Assembly: GCA_016839955.1 (NCBI GenBank) | Contig: JAEOTI010000540.1 | Span: 1-8,629, forward strand | DNA length: 8,629 nt | Source: Candidatus Hodarchaeota archaeon | GTDB lineage: Archaea; Asgardarchaeota; Heimdallarchaeia; Hodarchaeales; YT1-057 | Direction: 5' to 3' | Part shown: in pieces, positions 1 to 8,629 of the stretch | How the letters are laid out: every line of letters begins with the position of its first letter | How positions within the stretch are numbered: the stretch's first letter is position 1 | Notes under the pieces: generated by a model | Seen by the model: the letters and a program-made list of their open reading frames with translations, nothing else | What the model was told of the DNA's origin: nothing | Database searches by the model: none | Translations under genes and position numbers: made by a program

Positions 1-2
1 AA

Positions 3-1016
3 AGAGTCCTTAAACTTCCCGAAGACATTAGAATGTATTATAAAACAGAATTTTTCTCTCCACCAGGATCTCATAAGCTAAACACTGCACTTGCACAAGT
101 GTGGTATGCAAAAGAGCATGGATTTGAGGGTTTAACGACTGAGACAGGTGCGGGACAATGGGGATCAGCACTCTCATTCGCTTGTTCTATATTGGATATG
201 AAGTGTGTTGTGTTTTGGGTTAGATCTGCATTCAACCGTTTTCCACAACGCAAACGAATGATTGAACTCTATGGTGCAGAAGTGCATGCTTCTCCAACTA
301 ATTTAACAAAACCCGGAAAAAAACTCTTGGAAAAAGACCCTAATCATCCAGGTTCACTTGGAATCGCAATTAGTGAAGGTCTTCAGGCTGCATTAGATAG
401 TGATGGAAAAATGAAATACTCACTAGGTTCAGTATTGAATCACGTTCTTATTCAGCAAAGTATCATAGGATTAGAAACTAAATTACAATTTGAAAGCGTG
501 GACGAAACCCCGACACACCTAATTTCATGTTTGGGCGGTGGGAGTAATTTTGGCGGATTTGTTTTACCTTTTATCCCAGATATTCGCAAAGGTAAACTTG
601 ACGCAGAATTAGTTGCTGTCAACACCTCAGAAGTTGCTAATCTTCGTGGAGAATACCGATATGACTTTGGTGATCATGCTGGTTTAACTCCAATGTTGAA
701 AATGCTAACTCTGGGTCATGAAACTGATATGCCCACAGATATTCCCGCTGAAGGATTATTGTATCATGCTGCAGCTCCAATCATTTCTGCGCTAACCGTT
801 GAAGGTATTGTTAGACCTGCATCTCTTGATTGGCCTATAGCTCGTGATTATGGGAGATTATTCATGCAGAAGGAAGGGTTCATCCCTGCTCCTGAATCAT
901 CTTATGGAATAGCCCAAGCAATAATCGAAGCAAAGCGAAAGAAAGAGCTGGGCGAATCAGCAGTAATTGGCGTCAATATATCGGGTCATGGGCTATTAGG
1001 TATGGATTCGTTATAA
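3..1016 (+). CDS. trpB2: Tryptophan synthase beta chain, TrpB2 type (5'-truncated by window edge)
   Basis: This is a PLP-dependent beta-replacement enzyme that condenses indole with L-serine to give tryptophan in the cytosol. The frame is open from base 3, and the residues before the Met at base 33 (RVLKLPEDIR) already match TrpB. That Met is therefore internal, and roughly 90-110 N-terminal residues lie off the window. Counting from that Met, the PLP lysine is K15 in SPPGSHKLN. The catalytic glutamate is E37 in ETGAGQWG, where W instead of the H of TrpB1 marks the TrpB2 subfamily. The PLP-phosphate loop is GGGSNFGG (168-175), and the cofactor-ring serine lies in NISGHG near the C-terminus. 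YSLGSVLNHVL and PAPESSYGIA are also TrpB2-like. No trpA or other trp gene is visible here. TrpB2 enzymes often occur apart from trpA and may salvage free indole or use phosphoserine; that role is family knowledge, not shown here. Confidence 0.95.
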   Translation, partial: RVLKLPEDIRMYYKTEFFSPPGSHKLNTALAQVWYAKEHGFEGLTTETGAGQWGSALSFACSILDMKCVVFWVRSAFNRFPQRKRMIELYGAEVHASPTNLTKPGKKLLEKDPNHPGSLGIAISEGLQAALDSDGKMKYSLGSVLNHVLIQQSIIGLETKLQFESVDETPTHLISCLGGGSNFGGFVLPFIPDIRKGKLDAELVAVNTSEVANLRGEYRYDFGDHAGLTPMLKMLTLGHETDMPTDIPAEGLLYHAAAPIISALTVEGIVRPASLDWPIARDYGRLFMQKEGFIPAPESSYGIAQAIIEAKRKKELGESAVIGVNISGHGLLGMDSL

Positions 1017-1029
1017 TTGATGAAAACAT

Positions 1030-1065
1030 AGGGGAAAGTATCCCCTTTGTATTTATTTTTTTATC
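1030..1065 (+). terminator. Hairpin plus T-rich tail after trpB2
   Basis: A 6-bp stem, AGGGGA (1030-1035) with TCCCCT (1041-1046) around a 5-nt loop, starts 14 nt after the trpB2 stop. It is followed by a T-rich stretch containing a run of seven T. This fits termination of the plus-strand gene, with the convergent minus-strand gene ending at 1140. Confidence 0.6.
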
Positions 1066-1103
1066 AAAATCAATCCCTAAGCTCGAAGTAATTGCTGGAA
1101 GGA

Positions 1104-1113
1104 GTAAAAAATT
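1104..1113 (-). terminator. T-run terminator candidate after the GTPase gene
   Basis: Read on the minus strand, a run of six T (complement of 1106-1111) appears about 29 nt after the GTPase stop codon. Archaeal terminators can be simple T-runs without a hairpin. The run is short, so the call is tentative. Confidence 0.35.
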
Positions 1114-1139
1114 GAATCCTATTTTGATAGAGAAAATTT

Positions 1140-2243
1140 CTATGCTTGAAGACGTAATCTTGTTTGAGAAAAGAATTGGATATCTTCTAGTGAGAATTCA
1201 ATAGAATGTTCGTCAGGAGTCTTAATTGAATTATCAACTGGATCTTGTGTAAAACTTGATTCTACCTCACTTGGTGGAGTTAACAGTGGTTTAAGTTCCT
1301 CAATTAACTTTTCTGCGAGTACAAAACCATTTTCTGATTCTAAATTCTTTTGAACTATCTCAATAGCACTTCTTGCGATTTTTTTGGCACTTCTGACGGA
1401 GTCACGTTCTTCAGTAACTACTACACCAACAAGGTCCCCTTTTGTTGCTTGAACAAGTCTTAAGCCATCCCCTTTTGGACTAGTAATCAATAATTCTCTT
1501 ATTGATCCATTTTTAGTTTCTCCTTTTGAAATAAGATTGGAGGCTATTGTATTAAGGGCAGAATAAAACCCTGCAAACAGTATATCATCAGAATATTCAT
1601 CAGAATTAGGATCATCTAACCCATGTAGTTGATTCCCAGTAGAACTCATTAGAATACCATTATTATGATAAACATAGATAGCATGCGCATGTATAGGTTC
1701 AACAGGAGGGAAGCAATTAAAGGCGTTAGCTAACCAATTAAAGGCGTTAGCAACTCCTTCCCCAGTTTTACAGGAAGAAGGTACAATATAAAGCCCACTG
1801 AGTTCTGTGAAATATCTTTCAAGATTTAAAGTTTGAATAATCTCATCGAGTGGAATGGTGGGAAGATCTTGTTTGTTTGCAAGTGTCAATAAGTAAGGCT
1901 TTCCTGTTTTATACTTGATACAATATTCTATTGCCTTACGTGATTCTTTCAGAGATTTAACATTACTCGCATCGACTACAAAAACTATGGCATCTGCTAA
2001 TGGAATTAACTCTCTCCACATGGTTTTTTGATGAGAAGTATGTCCTCCGAGATCTATTGCACGAACTTGAACGCCTTCATATTCGAATGTATCTATAATA
2101 AAGCCAATCGTTGTAGGAAAAGATCCGAATTCCCCTTGGACTAATAAGTTGAGTAATGTAGTTTTTCCTACTTGGGGTAAACCAGCAATGACAATCGTAA
2201 AATCAAGTTCAGATTTTGACATAGAGGAAGTAGTTTTTGACAT
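1140..2243 (-). CDS. Arf/Sar1-type small GTPase with C-terminal longin-like domain
   Basis: This is a GTP-binding switch protein of 367 residues from the chosen start (MSKTT at 2243). All G motifs are present: G1 GLPQVGKT (21-28), G2 PTTIGF (43-48), G3 DLGGH (64-68), G4 NKQD (123-126) and G5 SSCKTGEG (156-163). TIGF and NKQDLP are Arf-like, while His after DLGG is the Sar1 form. Residues about 186-320 have the predicted order beta-beta-helix-three beta-two helices, the longin topology; this is my reading of the sequence, not a profile hit. The last 45 residues are acidic and probably disordered. The frame stays open to 2429, but that stretch is Phe/Cys/Asn-rich, sits before the G domain and contains a T-run terminator, so I reject it. 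Met at 2222 is an alternative start. There is no Gly2, so N-myristoylation as in Arf is not expected. G-domain-longin fusions are typical of Asgard archaea. Partner and membrane are unknown. Confidence 0.85.
   Translation of the reverse strand: MSKTTSSMSKSELDFTIVIAGLPQVGKTTLLNLLVQGEFGSFPTTIGFIIDTFEYEGVQVRAIDLGGHTSHQKTMWRELIPLADAIVFVVDASNVKSLKESRKAIEYCIKYKTGKPYLLTLANKQDLPTIPLDEIIQTLNLERYFTELSGLYIVPSSCKTGEGVANAFNWLANAFNCFPPVEPIHAHAIYVYHNNGILMSSTGNQLHGLDDPNSDEYSDDILFAGFYSALNTIASNLISKGETKNGSIRELLITSPKGDGLRLVQATKGDLVGVVVTEERDSVRSAKKIARSAIEIVQKNLESENGFVLAEKLIEELKPLLTPPSEVESSFTQDPVDNSIKTPDEHSIEFSLEDIQFFSQTRLRLQA
1714..1755 (-). repeat. Tandem 21-bp duplication inside the GTPase gene
   Basis: Two adjacent 21-bp units, 1714-1734 and 1735-1755, share an identical 17-nt start (CAATTAAAGGCGTTAGC on the plus strand). 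They encode the repeated heptads ANAFNWL and ANAFNCF at the last helix of the G domain. The phase is preserved. The helix length still resembles ordinary Arf proteins, so function is probably intact. Confidence 0.75.
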
Positions 2244-2404
2244 AAGATTAAACCAACAGTGAACATTTACATGACATTTGAAAAATAGAAAAGCGTTAGT
2301 TTCTAGGTTAATCTCAGAAACATGACGTTTGGGAACTCTCTCCAGTTTCTTAAGCAGTATTCTATAGCTATTTCTTGAAATTATCTTCAGAAAATTATTA
2401 TTAC

Positions 2405-2418
2405 AAAAGAAAAAAAGG
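2405..2418 (-). terminator. T-run terminator after the zinc-ribbon/RING-like gene
   Basis: Read on the minus strand this is CC, seven T, C, four T, G, lying about 30 nt after the stop codon at 2447. It is a strong archaeal-style U-run. It separates the upstream three-gene unit from the GTPase gene and argues that the latter has its own promoter between 2244 and 2404. I cannot point to a convincing TATA box in that interval. Confidence 0.55.
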
Positions 2419-2446
2419 CAGTTTACCATCTTTTTGGTGTAAATTA

Positions 2447-3610
2447 TTAAGCATGAGCCTCTTGCGTGCTTTTTACTGAAGATTTTAAAGGGTAAATTAG
2501 ATTTTCTTCATTTAATCTAGTCTTACAAATTGGACAGTCACCAGAAACCTTCAACCATTCTCGAATATGTCCCTCATGAAATTCATGACTACATTCTGGA
2601 CAGGCTGCGGTTTTTTCATCATATCCAATGACACTATGACAAACTTGGCAGTGTTTTACACCGTGTCCACATTCCGAACAAAACTTATCCTCAGAGAAAT
2701 CTAGTGACTCTCCACAATAATAGCAGGTATTTGATGCCTTTTCAACGTATCTAGGTTTTTGGGGGTAAATAAAAATAGGATCTCGTTCTCTTGATGAGAC
2801 TCCCATGTCAGAAGGGTCACCATTAGGCGTTGAAGGTTCTGAAATGTCTTGAGATGAGCTTGGTGGTGTGGAAGGTGAAATTTCTTCTGTATGACGACTT
2901 GATCTTAGAAGCGAAAAAACAACAGTTATTATAATAAAAAGGATGCCTGCTCCAAATACGAGAACTGGAAGAATTTCAACAATGTAGGATGTTACTTCAA
3001 ATCGAAGGGAGAAATCAAGGCGAATATCTCCTTGTCCAGCCGGATTAATAAAAAATATTAGCCAATCATCATTGTATGGAACTCGAAATTTTCCCTCACC
3101 AGAACTTGCTATGATTTCTCTCTCAACAGAATAACTACTCCCTATACTTCTGGCATGAGCATTATCAGAATCGAGAATTAGAAAATGGACAAGTTTTCCA
3201 TATCGTTCAGAAAAACTATATCGTATCGTATGCCCATTATACAAATGTCTATAATCAGAGACATATTCATTTGGACTAAGAGTCCTGGTTCCATCTAGTT
3301 CTTTGTTCCATGGACCATAAAGTATCGGATTGAAAATACCTAGAGCAAACACACTACTTGATATAACCACAAATAAAATAATCATAAAAAACCATGTGCG
3401 ATGACGATATCGCTGAAAAAAGAGCCAGCCTATAATGGGGGGACGATAACGGTGAGAATATCGACCTCGAGGTGTTCGACCCATAAAATGGCGATTGGAT
3501 CTTCGAAGAGTATTTCGGCTCACACGACCATGAGGTACTCCACTCCCTTGCATCCCTCGTAAGAATGGCTCAGCTCCTCGTTCATACAGACTTCCTCTTT
3601 GACCTCTCAT
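2447..3610 (-). CDS. Membrane protein with zinc ribbon and RING-like finger (putative E3-like)
   Basis: This is a two-helix membrane protein with two C-terminal zinc modules. The ATG at 3610 gives 387 residues and has GGGGGAT just upstream as a plausible ribosome site; an in-frame TTG at 3622 would add four residues, and positions below count from that TTG. The N-terminus (1-75) is Arg-rich, followed by TM1 at about 77-98, an extracytoplasmic beta-rich domain at about 99-211 (possibly a GOLD/p24-like sandwich, a guess), and TM2 at about 213-239. A Ser/Pro/Thr linker follows, then a zinc ribbon (C300, C303, C315, C318). The last module has C325/C328, C341/C344, H349/H352 and C363/C366. Four ligand pairs, with an I-x2-WL step after H352, match a RING cross-brace with C4H2C2 ligands. 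By the positive-inside rule both termini face the cytosol. RING fingers usually act as ubiquitin ligases by recruiting E2; whether this one does is inference. It lies 19 nt downstream of the exchanger gene. Confidence 0.75.
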   Translation of the reverse strand: MRGQRGSLYERGAEPFLRGMQGSGVPHGRVSRNTLRRSNRHFMGRTPRGRYSHRYRPPIIGWLFFQRYRHRTWFFMIILFVVISSSVFALGIFNPILYGPWNKELDGTRTLSPNEYVSDYRHLYNGHTIRYSFSERYGKLVHFLILDSDNAHARSIGSSYSVEREIIASSGEGKFRVPYNDDWLIFFINPAGQGDIRLDFSLRFEVTSYIVEILPVLVFGAGILFIIITVVFSLLRSSRHTEEISPSTPPSSSQDISEPSTPNGDPSDMGVSSRERDPIFIYPQKPRYVEKASNTCYYCGESLDFSEDKFCSECGHGVKHCQVCHSVIGYDEKTAACPECSHEFHEGHIREWLKVSGDCPICKTRLNEENLIYPLKSSVKSTQEAHA

Positions 3611-3629
3611 TTTATCCCCCAACTTTTTT

Positions 3630-4670
3630 TTATTCCTCTAGAAGGGTCACTACAACATGATGCAGGGCATCTGGTGCTTCAATAGCAGCCCACATGAGAA
3701 GTGGGCAAATTAAGATTAATAATATTCCTTCAATCTTAGTAATCTCTTGGTCTCTAATGAGTTCAGCAAATAGAAACGTCACAAAAGCAAGGATAAAAGA
3801 GGCTCCAAGTAAAAAGGGATCCAATTCAATTGGATGAATAATTATTGCTATTCCTAGAGCTAATGAAATATTGAGGAGAGCTGAACCCATAAGATTTCCG
3901 ACAACGAGATCATAATGACCTTTTCGGCTAGCTAGAATAATTCCAATATGTTCCGGAATACTGGAAGCTAAACCTATTACTGCCATGGCCACAAAAATAT
4001 AAATTTTCTCCGCTGTTGCTTCATTATAGCCTTGTTCTTCAATAATAAATTCAATAATATGGTGTATTCCTTCTACGAAGACTTCTCCCATAATGATCAT
4101 TAATATCATTGACCCAGCAAAAATCATTCCTGACTTCTCTTTCCCCCAGCGAGTATGTTCTTCAACTTCTTCTAACATTTCTTTATCCAAGTATTTGCTC
4201 CATAGATAAAGTAAACCACATGCAATAAGTAGAAATCCTTCCAAACGGTGTAATCCATCCGTTAAAATGGAAATTAAAGGAATTGCCATAATCATCAAAA
4301 AGAAACCAAGATCCCCTCGTTCGAGATTTTTGGTAATTTTCATCCCTCTCGAATCTTTAGCAATTAATGCGGCTATTCCAAGTGCAAGAGTAACATCATA
4401 AATTGTTGAACCCAAAACTGTGGGAAAAACCATTTTTGCAGAGTTTTGATCTCCCCCGGCAGCATCAATAGAGAGTAAGGATAATATTACAATTTCAGGA
4501 AAAACAACAATAACTCCAAGAACTACCGTTCCAATGAAAAATTGATTAATGTTAAAATGCTTTCCTAAGTCAAGAACAGATTCAACAGCATATTCACTTG
4601 TTTTCCAAATAACTAAAAAGGCAATGATACAAGCTGAGCCCCATAGAGCAATTGAACCATAGTCTGTCAT
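3630..4670 (-). CDS. Sodium/calcium exchanger-like cation antiporter (CaCA superfamily)
   Basis: This is a multi-pass membrane antiporter, probably exchanging Ca2+ for Na+ or H+. The protein has 346 residues, close to the usual length of prokaryotic CaCA proteins, with about ten hydrophobic segments in two halves. The alpha-2 repeat is canonical: GLASSIPEH (P239, E240) followed by GNLMGSALLN (N259, G262, S263, N267). The alpha-1 repeat keeps the PE (P58, E59) and GS (G87, S88) but reads PTVLGSTIYD where the family usually has N-x2-GSN-x2-N, so the halves are asymmetric. An acidic cytosolic loop (about 161-179, LDKEMLEEVEEHTRWGKEK) lies between the halves. The ATG at 4670 has GGGAAT a few bases upstream. 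It starts 32 nt after the P-loop NTPase gene and ends 19 nt before the RING-like gene, suggesting co-transcription. Ion specificity cannot be read from the sequence. Confidence 0.88.
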   Translation of the reverse strand: MTDYGSIALWGSACIIAFLVIWKTSEYAVESVLDLGKHFNINQFFIGTVVLGVIVVFPEIVILSLLSIDAAGGDQNSAKMVFPTVLGSTIYDVTLALGIAALIAKDSRGMKITKNLERGDLGFFLMIMAIPLISILTDGLHRLEGFLLIACGLLYLWSKYLDKEMLEEVEEHTRWGKEKSGMIFAGSMILMIIMGEVFVEGIHHIIEFIIEEQGYNEATAEKIYIFVAMAVIGLASSIPEHIGIILASRKGHYDLVVGNLMGSALLNISLALGIAIIIHPIELDPFLLGASFILAFVTFLFAELIRDQEITKIEGILLILICPLLMWAAIEAPDALHHVVVTLLEE

Positions 4671-4702
4671 ACTATTCCCTTTTTTCTATATTTTTGTGAC
4701 CT

Positions 4703-5629
4703 CTAAATGAAAAGCATATTTGTTAGTTCAACTAACATTTTTTCAAACTTTTTGGTATCTTTTGAAAATTTACTATTATTGATACCAATAGGTATTTGAA
4801 TAAGCCTTTCTGGAGTTATAAAGTCTAAAACTTTCTCCATAGTAACAGAGGATAATAAATCCACTTGATTAAATAAAATATTAGTTATTTCTAAGAATTT
4901 AGTTGTATCACACAGAATTAAACTGCCAGGGGCTACTGCGAGAACTAAATCAATTTGATTGTAATTTGTAAAAATACTAGGAGGAAATATCGCATTATTA
5001 AAGCCTTCAATAATTACTATATCGGAATTTTGTTGGTTTATCTTCTCATAACAAGATGATATTGAATCCTGTAAGATTTTTGAAAAGGGATTTGTTATAG
5101 GAAGAGTTTTCTTGGATTGAATTTCCTTTTTGGATGCGTTTTGGTAAATCTGGTTAAATATGGATCTATTAATAACTAACCGAGGAACCAATTTCTCTAG
5201 ATCGTCTCGGATAAGATATTCATTGTGTTTTTCTCCATTTTTTAAAGAAGTAAATCGTTGCATTAATGGAACACTTCTTGTACGCAAGGAGAAATAAGAC
5301 CGGGGCATTTCTTGGTCAAAATAAGGAGAAATAGCTTTCTCACCAAAAAGAACATGTGAAGGATTGTGAATTTCAACAGGTAGTGGAGTTTTGGTGCTAC
5401 TTTCTTTAATACTAGCTAACAATTTCTGAATGTCCTGTGAAATAATATTTCCTTGTGTTACATTATTGAGAGTATTTTCAAATTGAAAATAGAAACTATG
5501 TCCAGAGAGTGGTTTAAAGGGTAAGACTGAAATTCCATTTTTTGTAAGAATAGAGGTATAAAAGGAAATAAAACTTGTTTTGCCACTATTATAGTCTAAG
5601 ATACCATTAACTAAGATTATTTTAGTCAT
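4703..5629 (-). CDS. BioD/CobQ-like P-loop NTPase (SIMIBI class), function unknown
   Basis: This is a predicted soluble nucleotide-binding protein of 308 residues from the ATG at 5629. It opens with a strand and P-loop, ILVNGILDYNSGKTS (5-19). Next comes LPFKPLSGH (36-44), resembling the K-P-x-x-S-G element that follows the P-loop in dethiobiotin synthetase-like enzymes. SDIVIIEGFNNAIFPP (202-217) is a Walker-B-like strand followed by a glycine/asparagine turn, comparable to VEGAGG in BioD. The middle (80-190) is poorly conserved to my eye. I believe it belongs with the archaeal predicted P-loop ATPase/GTPase group COG4028, from memory. An in-frame Met at 5689 would add 20 residues before the first strand; I prefer the shorter form because the P-loop then sits at the usual distance from the N-terminus. 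It heads the likely operon with the exchanger and RING-like genes. Substrate unknown. Confidence 0.65.
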   Translation of the reverse strand: MTKIILVNGILDYNSGKTSFISFYTSILTKNGISVLPFKPLSGHSFYFQFENTLNNVTQGNIISQDIQKLLASIKESSTKTPLPVEIHNPSHVLFGEKAISPYFDQEMPRSYFSLRTRSVPLMQRFTSLKNGEKHNEYLIRDDLEKLVPRLVINRSIFNQIYQNASKKEIQSKKTLPITNPFSKILQDSISSCYEKINQQNSDIVIIEGFNNAIFPPSIFTNYNQIDLVLAVAPGSLILCDTTKFLEITNILFNQVDLLSSVTMEKVLDFITPERLIQIPIGINNSKFSKDTKKFEKMLVELTNMLFI

Positions 5630-5660
5630 TGTACTTGCATATTTATTATGATGTGACTGT

Positions 5661-5672
5661 TTTTTAAAAATA
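5661..5672 (-). promoter_or_regulatory. TATA-like box for the minus-strand operon
   Basis: The minus-strand reading TATTTTTAAAAA is centred about 37 nt upstream of the ATG at 5629. This would place transcription start about 10-15 nt before the codon. A second AT-rich run (TAATAAATAT) lies too close to the ATG to be the TATA box. Confidence 0.35.
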
Positions 5673-5759
5673 ATGGCTAAATTCAGCAATATTTGTATAA
5701 GTGTAATGTTCCAAAATTTACAAAAAACCTTGAGTTTTGGATGAAAAATGAATTTCCTC

Positions 5760-5768
5760 TTTATATAT
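5760..5768 (+). promoter_or_regulatory. TATA-like box for the EamA transporter gene
   Basis: TTTATATAT is centred about 48 nt before the TTG start at 5812. A start site about 25 nt downstream would give a short leader holding the purine-rich AAGGAAAAGGAAAC (5793-5806), a plausible ribosome site. It lies in the divergent region shared with the NTPase gene. Confidence 0.45.
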
Positions 5769-5811
5769 GTATAAATGAAAATGAGGATAATCCAAGGAAA
5801 AGGAAACTTAA

Positions 5812-6744
5812 TTGGTAAACCCAGTTTCTTCCAAAAAAAGAAGTTCTTTGAGTAATCATACTATTGGTAAATTTCTATTAATTCTAGCTGCTTTCTTTTG
5901 GGGTTGTACATTTGTTCTTGTCAAAGCTGCTGTGGAAGATTTAAATCTCCATTATTTTCTTTTTTATCGTTTTACTCTTGCTGCAATTATCTTAGCTTTA
6001 CTTTTTCCTCGAAAGATTTCAAAAAATTTTGCAAACAAAGATTTCAGAAAGATGGGAGTTATTTTAGGAGTATTTGTTTATGGGTCCTTCTTATTTCAAA
6101 CAATAGGCCTTACAATGACAACTGCTTCAAATGCTGCATTTGTAACCGGTATGAATGTTCTCTTTGTCCCAATTATTGCAATTGGTTTTGGTTTGGGGTT
6201 CCCAAATCCTAGAACTACACTAGCAGTCACAATTGCCTTTATTGGGCTGATCATGCTTACTCTAGACTTCTCCTCAATGGAAGTAAGCTCGGGAGATGCT
6301 TGGGTAGTTTTATGTGCAATTTGTATTGCGTTTCATATATTATTTTCCGAACAATTTGCCAAGCAAGTCCCACCTGAATTTTTAGCATGGTCACAAATTG
6401 CGACAACAGCAGGATTAGCTTTAATCCTAGCACTGGTCTTAGCGGAGGGAGATCCTTTTGTATTTACTCCAATTGTCATTCTTACACTTATAGTGACTGC
6501 ATGTTTCGCGACAGGATTTGCTTACATTGTTCAGTCATGGGCTCAAAGTTCAGAAGTGGGAGTGTCTAGTTCTACAGTTGCTCTCATATTTATTTTAGAA
6601 CCAGTTTTTGCCCTAATAATAGATGTATTACTTGGCACAAATCTTGGTTGGAACAATTGGTTAGGAGCAGGACTTATCTTCTGTGGGATGCTTTTAGCAG
6701 TTACTGAACCGAAAGTGCAGGATATGTCCCTTCCACCTCATTAA
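5812..6744 (+). CDS. EamA-family (DMT superfamily) transporter
   Basis: This is a predicted ten-helix inner-membrane carrier of 310 residues, built from two EamA repeats of five helices. Drug/metabolite transporters of this type export amino acids, nucleosides or other small metabolites; the substrate is not predictable here. Repeat one begins with LAAFFWGCTFVLVKAA (25-40) and continues with YRFTLAAIILALL (52-64) and the TTASNAAFVTGMNVLFVPI block (103-121). Repeat two ends with EVGVSSSTVALIFILEPVFA (248-267), the typical conserved end of the second EamA domain, and a last helix at about 282-297. The start is TTG, directly after an in-frame TAA and preceded by a purine-rich ribosome site; no in-frame ATG occurs before the first helix. 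The gene is divergent from the NTPase operon and convergent with the next gene. Confidence 0.92.
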   Translation: MVNPVSSKKRSSLSNHTIGKFLLILAAFFWGCTFVLVKAAVEDLNLHYFLFYRFTLAAIILALLFPRKISKNFANKDFRKMGVILGVFVYGSFLFQTIGLTMTTASNAAFVTGMNVLFVPIIAIGFGLGFPNPRTTLAVTIAFIGLIMLTLDFSSMEVSSGDAWVVLCAICIAFHILFSEQFAKQVPPEFLAWSQIATTAGLALILALVLAEGDPFVFTPIVILTLIVTACFATGFAYIVQSWAQSSEVGVSSSTVALIFILEPVFALIIDVLLGTNLGWNNWLGAGLIFCGMLLAVTEPKVQDMSLPPH

Positions 6745-6901
6745 CCTGCATTCCTCTACTACTATTCTTCTAAAGATATTAGTTGATCTAATCATTTGTT
6801 TTAGAATATTAGCATAGGCACACGAATCAATTACTATTAAGCTATATGGGAAGTTAATAACTAAAAATATTCGTCTCTACCCTGTAAAAAGGTTCAAAAA
6901 A
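6745..6901. other. Convergent intergenic region
   Basis: This 157-nt gap between two converging genes has no open frame or RNA-like structure that I can support. Its left end is pyrimidine-rich (6752-6771) and may help end the EamA transcript. The right end holds the T-run terminator of the opposite gene. Confidence 0.5.
6886..6901 (-). terminator. T-run terminator of the four-helix membrane protein
   Basis: Immediately after the stop codon the minus strand reads six T, GAACC, five T. This double U-run without a stem is typical of archaeal termination. Confidence 0.5.
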
Positions 6902-7444
6902 TTACCATTCATCTTTTTTCTCTTTAATATAATCCAATCTTTTTTGCATTTCAGAAGTGGTTTGGCGTAATTCGACCATTTGTTCTTTATCTATTGGTTT
7001 TATTGTTTTGATAATTCTGTAAATTCCTATGGTTACTAGGATAATCCCCAACATAAGCAAAACATTACCTACAAAATCAAGTGAATAATTATCATAGTTA
7101 GTGGATTGCTCAATAGTATAAGCTAATGCCATTTGGAGGTTAATGAAATGTAATAACCCTGAAAAAAGATAGAGAAAACCTGGTGGTCGTCTAAATCCGT
7201 ATAGAGCAAATATAAAACCAAGAAGAGCAAAAAGAAGACTACCAATAACCAGAAATAAAATATGATGGGTTGAAAGGAGATATTCTTTAGTTATATTACC
7301 AAACAAATCAACTTTTACATACCAGGGGAGAATTAACGTCCAACAAATAAAGAAAAGACTTACTGCAACGATCTTATCTGATCTAGTCAAGTTTATAAAA
7401 TTGAATTCTTTATATTTTCTCCATTGTAGCCATTTAAGGTTCAT
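6902..7444 (-). CDS. Four-helix membrane protein of unknown function
   Basis: I do not recognise a family. The 180-residue product starts with a basic, Trp-rich segment (1-24) and then has four hydrophobic helices at about 25-43, 60-84, 89-111 and 123-146. It ends with a charged, cytosolic tail (150-180) that could form a short coiled coil (MVELRQTTSEMQKRLDYIKE). Positive charges (RSDK before helix 1, FRRPP between helices 2 and 3, KTIK after helix 4) suggest both termini are inside. The short loop between helices 1 and 2 and the loop before helix 4 (EQSTNYDNYSLD) would be outside. The start ATG at 7444 has GGATGAG about 12 nt upstream. It stands alone, convergent with the EamA gene and divergent from a small plus-strand gene. 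Confidence 0.7.
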   Translation of the reverse strand: MNLKWLQWRKYKEFNFINLTRSDKIVAVSLFFICWTLILPWYVKVDLFGNITKEYLLSTHHILFLVIGSLLFALLGFIFALYGFRRPPGFLYLFSGLLHFINLQMALAYTIEQSTNYDNYSLDFVGNVLLMLGIILVTIGIYRIIKTIKPIDKEQMVELRQTTSEMQKRLDYIKEKKDEW

Positions 7445-7488
7445 TCTATTTTACTCATCCTGATAATGATTATCTTAGCGATTGAAAA

Positions 7489-7503
7489 ATTATAATTTTA
7501 ATT
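7489..7503 (-). promoter_or_regulatory. TATA-like box upstream of the four-helix protein gene
   Basis: The minus-strand stretch AAATTAAAATTATAATT is centred about 50 nt before the ATG at 7444. That leaves room for a roughly 25-nt leader carrying the GGATGAG ribosome site. The region is generally AT-rich, so the call is weak. Confidence 0.3.
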
Positions 7504-7527
7504 TTTTTACCATTGCATTAGCTTTGA

Positions 7528-7549
7528 AAATTTTAAAAAAGTCGTCAAA
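7528..7549 (+). repeat. Imperfect 22-bp direct repeat, copy 1
   Basis: This copy matches 7856-7877 at 20 of 22 positions. The shared core is AAGTCGTCAAA, preceded by AAATTTT. It lies 83 nt before the start of the small two-helix gene. Confidence 0.6.
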
Positions 7550-7632
7550 CTGTTATTTCACGAAAGTCATCCTCGAATGACATATTTTGTTTTTAGAAAA
7601 CGAAGACTCCTCAAAGGAAATTAGGTTGAGAG

Positions 7633-7839
7633 ATGTATTGGACAATATTAACAACATTTTTGACTTTTCTTCCAATATTCTGGTGGGAGAGCAGCGGTTT
7701 GGGTTATACTTTCAAAGATCCAATTGAAATACTAAGAGATAAACCATTTTTTCTATTTTCAGGCATTATTCTGTTCTCATTTATTGTATCGATTCTATTT
7801 TCATTTATTTATGAGCTATTCAGGTTGAATTTTTCTTGA
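7633..7839 (+). CDS. Small two-helix membrane protein, hypothetical
   Basis: A 68-residue open frame begins with ATG and has AGGTTGAG 5-12 nt upstream as a possible ribosome site. It encodes two hydrophobic helices (about 3-18 and 38-63) joined by a polar loop, SSGLGYTFKDPIEILRDKP, with a short RLNFS tail. The mixed polar loop and varied codons look more like a real small protein than a random AT-rich frame, but no family is recognised. It is bracketed by the two copies of the 22-bp direct repeat and may be unrelated to either neighbour. Confidence 0.5.
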   Translation: MYWTILTTFLTFLPIFWWESSGLGYTFKDPIEILRDKPFFLFSGIILFSFIVSILFSFIYELFRLNFS

Positions 7840-7855
7840 AAAAGTTAATTTCACC

Positions 7856-7877
7856 AAATTTTCAATAAGTCGTCAAA
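7856..7877 (+). repeat. Imperfect 22-bp direct repeat, copy 2
   Basis: Second copy of the repeat seen at 7528-7549, in the same orientation with two mismatches. It begins 17 nt after the stop codon of the small two-helix gene and about 60 nt past the 3' end of the beta-propeller gene on the other strand. Confidence 0.6.
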
Positions 7878-7939
7878 ATCCATTAAGCAAACCAGTTATT
7901 TGCCGCACTCCAATTGTTAATTCTTTCTATTCAGTAAAT

Positions 7940-8455
7940 CTAATTGATTTTGCTTCTAGAACGTTGAACGATCGTAACAGTCGCAATCACAATTAATGGA
8001 AGAATAATTGTCCAAAATCCAAGTGCTAAGCTATTCTCATTATCATTATTCTCTCCATATTTCAAAATCTTCCCAGTTGTTTCCCATAGAACTTGGCCAT
8101 CTTGTCCACTAACGGCATATATAAATCCAAATCGTGTGGTTACTGCAATATCCTGAATACTATCATTGTTCACATCAAAGTTACCTGAGTCTAAATTGCC
8201 CACTGCATCGTTAGGCCCCCGTCGAAGGTCCGTACACTCCCACAATGTACTACCAGTTTTCCCGTTGATTGCATAAATCCCAGTTAGACCCGGTTCAGGC
8301 GTGTCCTCAAAACTTCCAACTATATAATCAGGTATTAGGTCTTCAGTAAGATCGATAGTAGTAGTTTCATAGAGGTGCACTCCAATGTAGTTCTCCCAGA
8401 GAATTGTTCCATCTATTCCATTCAACCCTAAAACTCGCGTATGAAGGAGGGTCAT
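7940..8455 (-). CDS. C-terminal part of membrane-anchored FG-GAP/PQQ-like beta-propeller protein
   Basis: The last 171 residues of a surface protein follow the first ATG after an in-frame stop. Two repeat signatures alternate. PQQ-like strands read VLGLNGIDGTILWE (8-21), IYAINGKTGSTLWE (60-73) and IYAVSGQDGQVLWE (112-125). Calcium-loop FG-GAP-like segments read DLTEDLIPDYIVG (35-47) and DVNNDSIQDIAV (94-105). A linker (GENNDNENS) leads to a C-terminal helix (about 145-163) and a short basic tail RSRSKIN, so the propeller should face outside the cell. Such propellers usually bind ligands or partners; nothing shows an enzyme active site. The matching repeat continues upstream in the same frame to the window edge (8513-8629), so this is probably not an independent gene but the downstream piece of one interrupted by TAA at 8510-8512. 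No signal peptide would exist if translation began here. Confidence 0.75.
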   Translation of the reverse strand: MTLLHTRVLGLNGIDGTILWENYIGVHLYETTTIDLTEDLIPDYIVGSFEDTPEPGLTGIYAINGKTGSTLWECTDLRRGPNDAVGNLDSGNFDVNNDSIQDIAVTTRFGFIYAVSGQDGQVLWETTGKILKYGENNDNENSLALGFWTIILPLIVIATVTIVQRSRSKIN

Positions 8456-8509
8456 GACGTCGGGTACATTATCATTATTAATATCAGTAATTTGGATCTC
8501 TTCTGTCCC

Positions 8510-8629
8510 TTATAGGTCCTTATAAAAATAGGGAGAAAGCCAAAGCTCTTCTCCATTGGTACCATTGAGTAGATAAATAAAATCAGTACCACTAGCAACC
8601 ATAATCTCTGGTTTGTTATCATTGTTGAA
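8510..8629 (-). pseudogene. Upstream part of the same beta-propeller gene, ending at an in-frame TAA
   Basis: The frame is open from the window edge and encodes 39 residues, beginning FNNDNKPEIMVASG and continuing with IYLLNGTNGEELWLS. These are the FG-GAP-like and PQQ-like halves of one more propeller blade. Translation stops at TAA (complement of 8510-8512), but the same frame goes on at once with GTEEIQITDINNDNVPDV, the next blade. The break is a single stop codon with no frame change. It may be a real nonsense mutation, a base error in the assembly or, less likely, a readthrough site. The 5' end, including any signal peptide, lies beyond the window. Confidence 0.7.

Follow-up and report, generated by a model that had tools for sequence, protein, structure and literature searches.

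A candidate membrane-anchored E3 ligase with a zinc ribbon and a variant RING-H2 finger in a Hodarchaeales archaeon

Eukaryotes depend on membrane-bound ubiquitin ligation for protein quality control and for ESCRT sorting, and the question raised by the locus described here is whether an archaeon from the Hodarchaeales, the order that PMC10307638 places as sister to the eukaryotes, encodes a membrane-spanning RING protein capable of recruiting an E2 enzyme. If a true membrane-spanning RING E3 is present in an Asgard genome, then membrane-bound ubiquitin ligation could predate eukaryotes. The locus lies on contig JAEOTI010000540.1 of Candidatus Hodarchaeota archaeon (assembly GCA_016839955.1), positions 1 to 8,629 of which were analysed as a whole and are referred to below as the window.

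The gene and its predicted membrane topology

The reading frame at 2447..3610 on the minus strand runs from an ATG at 3610 to a stop at 2447 and encodes 387 amino acids plus the stop. A purine-rich GTTGGGGGATAAA stretch lies 5' of the ATG, an alternative TTG start at 3622 would add four residues, and the codon-position GC content (0.50/0.44/0.23) falls inside the range of the adjoining genes; the frame is a real gene. Searched against 5.8 billion proteins, the full-length product matched itself alone (one of 1417 candidates at E ≤ 1e-3), as did residues 289-378 (one of 11 candidates at E ≤ 10), in a procedure that requires common five-residue words and similar length and that distant kin may therefore escape. 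None of four stretches from viral contigs was confirmed as a match to the protein, phages and plasmids gave nothing at E ≤ 1, and the sole NCBIfam match was rad18 at 13.8 bits, far below its cut-off; a family search also gave no match in 14 control genomes and one plasmid record, an outcome that is uninformative.

The initial annotation had described two membrane helices flanking an outside domain of some 110 residues, and the hydropathy profile bears this out. On the minus strand throughout, a basic N-terminal tail predicted to be cytosolic (residues 1-72, 3395..3610; 16 Lys/Arg against two Asp/Glu in residues 1-70) leads into membrane helix 1 (about residues 72-95 by hydropathy, placed at 73-95, 3326..3394), which peaks at 2.65 on the Kyte-Doolittle scale in a 19-residue window, and membrane helix 2 (about residues 206-236 by hydropathy, placed at 213-236, 2903..2974) peaks at 2.89. 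The two helices flank an outside segment some 115 residues long (about residues 96-209, 2984..3325), and helix 2 is followed by a cytosolic linker (residues 237-293, 2732..2902) whose first half is rich in Ser and Pro. The charge pattern and the positive-inside rule would place both ends in the cytosol, and the sequence fits an N-in, loop-out, C-in topology with both termini predicted to be cytosolic. The outside segment has no Pfam match above cut-off (best DUF7202, 13.7 bits against a cut-off of 27), and its best PDB sequence match stands at E 0.44; these searches returned nothing usable on a GOLD/p24 or other sandwich fold and lend no support to the sensor-like role suggested in the initial annotation.

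Ligand register and predicted fold of the cytosolic finger

The tail that follows the linker opens with a zinc ribbon, C296-x2-C299-x11-C311-x2-C314 (2669..2725, minus strand), and continues into a RING finger spanning C321 to C362, with K363 at the linchpin position (2522..2650, minus strand). The ribbon and the four pairs listed after it in the initial annotation, namely C321/C324, C337/C340, H345/H348 and C359/C362, are found as written, and the I-x2-WL step after the third pair is kept as I349 and W352-L353. The label of C4H2C2 that accompanied them holds in the literal sense that all four pairs are present, but it omits H342 and rests on a second pair that is ambiguous: in the alignments with RNF165 and RLIM, ligands three and four fall on C340 and H342 instead of C337 and C340, and in this register ligands one to eight are C321, C324, C340, H342, H345, H348, C359 and C362. 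The strict C3H2C3 set of a RING-H2 finger is thereby broken at its sixth member, where in the same alignments H348 (codon at 2567..2569, minus strand) replaces the Cys, while C340, H342, H345 and the other cysteines are present. The finger reads as a RING-H2-like variant in which Cys6 has become H348 and C337 is spare; which of C337, C340 and H342 would bind zinc is ambiguous, since the sequence fits more than one set.

Nor is this ligand pattern as unusual as had been proposed, CxxC at pair two occurring in listerin and HxxH at pair three in GATOR2. In listerin (Ltn1) the CxxC lies at the same distance before an FH (ACRTCKKKFH, TCPTCKNKFH), matching pair two as originally drawn, but the sixth ligand is a Cys, no His occupies the place of H342, and the chains are 1562 and 1766 residues long. 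Listerin is ribosome-associated.

At the family level, zf-RING_2 (PF13639) scores 28.3 bits (E 2.1e-6) on the whole protein and 32.2 bits (E 1.3e-7) on the tail alone, against a curated Pfam cut-off of 27.3 bits. Its best PDB sequence matches are the RING E3s RNF165/ARK2C, RLIM, Arkadia and RNF4. With the E2-type RING-H2 proteins of PF13639 (RNF165/Ark2C, RLIM, Arkadia) it shares the register at C1, C2, C3, H4, H5, C7 and C8, the C.H.(F/Y)H... string, the WL helix and the CPIC end; it departs from them in its sixth ligand, His348, in the extra Cys337, in the preceding zinc ribbon and in a linchpin that is Lys instead of Arg.

We compared the real tail with shuffled versions in which every Cys and His was left in place, using profiles built on few hand-picked rows (three GATOR2; four RING, with RNF165 and ARK2C standing for the same protein). 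The E2-type RING profile gave 31.6 bits on the real tail against a maximum of 9.1 in 500 shuffles, whereas in the same test the GATOR2 profile gave 26.8 bits against shuffles that averaged 11.8 and peaked at 28.8. Pairwise, none of 2000 shuffles reached the real score for RNF165, RLIM, ARK2C or RNF4, as against five for WDR24, two for MIOS and 217 for WDR59, and it is important to note that both comparisons carry a bias of row choice, the RING rows having been taken as top matches and the GATOR2 rows for their motif. From the shuffles it follows that the tail resembles GATOR2 mainly in how its ligands are spaced and that the body of the finger lies nearer the E2-type RINGs; similarity to the latter reaches well beyond the metal ligands. 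In raw tail alignment score WDR24 (98) stands highest of the seven rows, above RNF165 and RLIM (89 each), ARK2C (87), WDR59 (80), RNF4 (75) and MIOS (68), because its alignment also spans the ribbon; by BLASTP, RNF165 gives 36.2 bits (35% identity over 46 residues) versus 30.8 bits for WDR24 (43% over 40 residues).

The single-sequence fold model of the finger (mean pLDDT 58.6, the remaining four fold models lying at 34.8-46.2) contains a hairpin and then a helix that starts beside H345 and H348, tentatively the hairpin-helix arrangement of a cross-braced treble clef. Of the 11 Foldseek matches at E ≤ 0.001, seven belong to RING, U-box or spliceosome chains, which fit with an rmsd of 1.3-2.8, and the other four are GATOR2/SEA chains at rmsd 11-13. 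In E-value the top-ranked RING and GATOR2 chains are alike (1.8e-4 and 2.1e-4). No GATOR2/SEA row stands among the 50 entries listed in the VIA structural list, which does not thereby exclude families outside those 50. Residues 292-350 by themselves (59 amino acids, ending before the last Cys pair) gave 12 matches, headed by CNOT4 (E 0.0091); RNF165/RLIM and MIOS were absent from them. Taken with the zf-RING_2 score above cut-off, the modest-confidence model and its RING/U-box matches argue, in line with the initial annotation, for a RING and against a series of stacked zinc ribbons.

E2-facing residues and the competing readings

The reading to which we give a shade better than an even chance is that of a membrane-anchored protein combining a zinc ribbon with an E2-type RING, a candidate E3 ligase with one substituted ligand. 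The closest archaeal point of reference is srfp of Caldiarchaeum subterraneum, the one experimentally demonstrated archaeal RING E3 in the literature consulted (PMC5654768), a small protein encoded in a ubiquitin operon. Like the finger here, that of srfp is of the RING-H2 type and carries an additional Cys (C3B) close to ligand three; the Hodarchaeales protein differs in being membrane-anchored, in its ribbon and outside segment, and in having no ubiquitin operon within the window. V323, W352 and K363 correspond to I30, W58 and R69 of srfp, where I30 is taken to lie between C1 and C2; the distance from the Trp to the Lys/Arg is 11 in both proteins (W58 to R69 in srfp), and that from V323 to W352 is 29 versus 28 in srfp. 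The finger thus holds the E2-type set of a hydrophobic residue between C1 and C2, a helix Trp and a Lys or Arg after the last Cys. For srfp, PMC5654768 reports that I30Q abolished ubiquitylation, that W58A and R69A impaired it, and that the R69 position is Lys or Arg in all RING E3s, so the occupation of these three positions by V323, W352 and K363 lends indirect support to E2 recruitment. Heimdallarchaeota have been reported to encode ubiquitin as well as E2-like proteins (PMC9192718, PMC5654768); among the seven neighbouring genes scanned, Pfam found no E1, E2 or ubiquitin.

What is directly observed is the gene, its topology signals, the RING family match and the presence of V323, W352, P360-I361 and K363. 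From these we infer that the tail binds zinc, docks an E2 and acts as a ligase, that the protein chooses its substrates and that the outside segment has a role, all of which would fit together as follows. Selection of the substrate or the place would fall to the outside segment or to the membrane part. On the cytosolic side of the membrane the RING would bind an E2 charged with ubiquitin, touching it through V323, W352 and P360-I361, and K363 would act as the linchpin that closes E2~Ub; the outcome would be ubiquitylation of membrane or membrane-near proteins.

Several points speak against the ligase reading, among them that ligand six is H348, a position held by Cys in all four E2-type rows (RNF165, ARK2C, RLIM and RNF4; three proteins), and that the linchpin K363 is Lys, not Arg. 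The top raw alignment score of WDR24, the like Foldseek E-values, the modest confidence of the model, the weak matches of residues 292-350 and the lack of an E1, E2 or ubiquitin among the scanned neighbours count on the same side. We know of no precedent for an E2-active RING with a changed sixth ligand. A search of the open-licence literature for RINGs with His in place of C6 ('C3H3C2') gave nothing relevant, and no title or abstract opening among the matches listed there describes an archaeal membrane RING. No relative turned up in which conservation of the ligands could be seen.

The leading alternative, although unlikely, is that the tail is a structural ZnF-RING of GATOR2/SEA type, serving for dimerisation or for the assembly of a complex at the membrane and doing no E2 work. 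In the SEA and GATOR2 complexes these domains are described as structural, holding the cage together (PMC9646525, PMC12477443), save that the WDR24 RING is stated to bind UBE2D3 (Jiang 2023, as cited in PMC10938194). The ligand order of our protein is the same as that of human WDR24 and WDR59 and the spacing nearly so: both GATOR2 subunits carry a zinc ribbon, six residues and then CxxC-x10-CxxC-x-H-x2-H-x2-H-x10-C, and the combination of a ribbon with the CxxCxHxxHxxH string is therefore found in WDR24 and WDR59 as it is here, with the RING loop at 10 residues versus 12 here and the ribbon loop at 10 and 8 versus 11. For MIOS the comparison covered the latter half of this ligand string, which it shares. 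In all three GATOR2 RINGs the sixth ligand is His, as H348 is here, and a Trp after the string is common too. In addition to the BLASTP match with WDR24 and the GATOR2/SEA share of four of the 11 best Foldseek matches, PDB searches matched MIOS at E 0.017 and 0.0044 and chain 9dx2_H, labelled WDR24 but with a WDR59 tail, at E 0.15.

Past the ligands, however, the likeness weakens, as seen in the GATOR2 profile score below the shuffle maximum, in the pairwise scores that ligand-keeping shuffles reach and in the poor rmsd of all four GATOR2/SEA Foldseek matches. The tail scores 17.2 bits against zinc_ribbon_16 (PF17034), presumably the Sea4/MIOS tail family, whose cut-off is 27, and the 387-residue protein with its two membrane helices contains no Pfam beta-propeller or alpha-solenoid. 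Moreover, the GATOR2 RINGs end in CPAGCG, CPTGCG and CPVSACT, without the Lys or Arg that follows CPIC here, so that a CPICK end with a linchpin Lys, like the membrane helices, sets our protein apart from the GATOR2 subunits. It is the presence of V323, W352 and K363, set against GATOR2 RINGs lacking the terminal Lys or Arg, that tips the balance towards an E2-using ligase.

As observations on the structural records themselves, the chain names in PDB entries 9dx0, 9dx1 and 9dx2 disagree with the tails, since chains named SEH1, SEC13 homolog or WDR24 end in the tail of WDR24 or WDR59, a mismatch possibly due to engineered fusions or swapped names; the WDR59 row used here is identical in the chain labelled SEC13 homolog and in 7uhy_D, which is named WDR59.

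We regard as improbable that the tail is a RING-like reader or adaptor on a membrane receptor, taking no part in ubiquitin transfer and owing its E2-facing residues to descent only. Many eukaryotic RING-like fingers lack E2 activity, and an altered sixth ligand together with the absence of detected relatives would be compatible with drift, but V323, W352, P360 and K363 are all retained together. Still less probable is a double zinc ribbon, in which C321-C340 would form a second ribbon and the later His and Cys residues would not be a RING half: DZR (PF12773), spanning C296-C340, reaches 25.8 bits on the tail, just below its cut-off of 27.3, but 18.4 bits on the whole protein; it is outscored by zf-RING_2, which passes its own cut-off; it leaves over H345, H348, W352, C359 and C362, for which a RING accounts; and the model is a RING-like hairpin-helix with no plain zinc ribbon among the 11 best Foldseek matches.

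The ligase and GATOR2 readings would meet if the protein derived from a common source of E2-type RING-H2 and SEA/GATOR2 ZnF-RING domains, uniting the GATOR2 string and ribbon with E2 residues in a membrane-bound protein next to an Arf-like GTPase gene, a scenario to which we attach the lowest probability of all; were it true, coat-complex RINGs would have begun as membrane-bound ubiquitin ligases. Kaur and Subramanian consider a distant common origin of coat-complex RINGs plausible (PMC4678705), a view that makes the GATOR2 link worth following while offering no proof for this protein, and because the ligand string is shared with GATOR2, a connection of coat-complex RINGs to E3 RINGs becomes open to test as soon as relatives are known. 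As a candidate ligase, the protein draws its interest from where it sits.

Neighbouring genes

Directly upstream of the RING gene, at a distance of 19 bases, lies a gene of the Na/Ca exchanger family (3630..4670, minus strand; Na_Ca_ex 98.2 bits), and 203 bases downstream an Arf-like GTPase with an extra C-terminal domain (1140..2243, minus strand; Pfam Arf 101.9 bits). By spacing, a transcript shared by the exchanger and RING genes is plausible, with the GTPase gene less tightly linked. A sigma-70 scan of positions 1000-5000 found eight sites versus 14.0 expected, a count that is uninformative for an archaeal operon.

Four relatives of the GTPase, two of which carry the name Hodarchaeota or Hodarchaeales, are 48-49% identical to it, which supports an Asgard origin of the window, from Hodarchaeales or a related lineage. 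In searches of genome contigs with the GTPase as query none of 37 and none of 73 stretches was confirmed. Its C-terminal half (about 190 residues) matches no Pfam family at E ≤ 10 and is alignable in its relatives, and its model is poor (mean pLDDT 41.2). PMC10933270 describes Asgard fusions of GTPases with roadblock or longin domains that are often annotated as Arf, and by analogy the gene may be of this kind. A Rag-like identity was considered but found no support: Pfam assigns the G domain to Arf, and Gtr1_RagA appears in one of the two relatives scanned (of four), with 15.6 bits where the cut-off is 22. In the list of GTPase matches the archaeal relatives are followed by animal TRIM23, which has RING and Arf domains (31% over 46%), a match that probably reflects shared Arf ancestry only.

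Further along the window, a minus-strand frame at 4703-5689 has a P-loop-like start (ILVNGILDYNSGKTS) and a weak MobB match of 15.4 bits, below cut-off. At 7940-8629, also on the minus strand, weak PQQ_2 and FG-GAP matches below their cut-offs and a C-terminal hydrophobic stretch mark a repeat protein whose frame is interrupted by an in-frame stop, the sign of either a broken gene or an error in the assembly. The opposite end of the window holds, on the plus strand at 3-1016, a TrpB-like PLP enzyme truncated by the window edge, whose best-listed plasmid copy, from Thermomicrobium roseum, is 48.6% identical.
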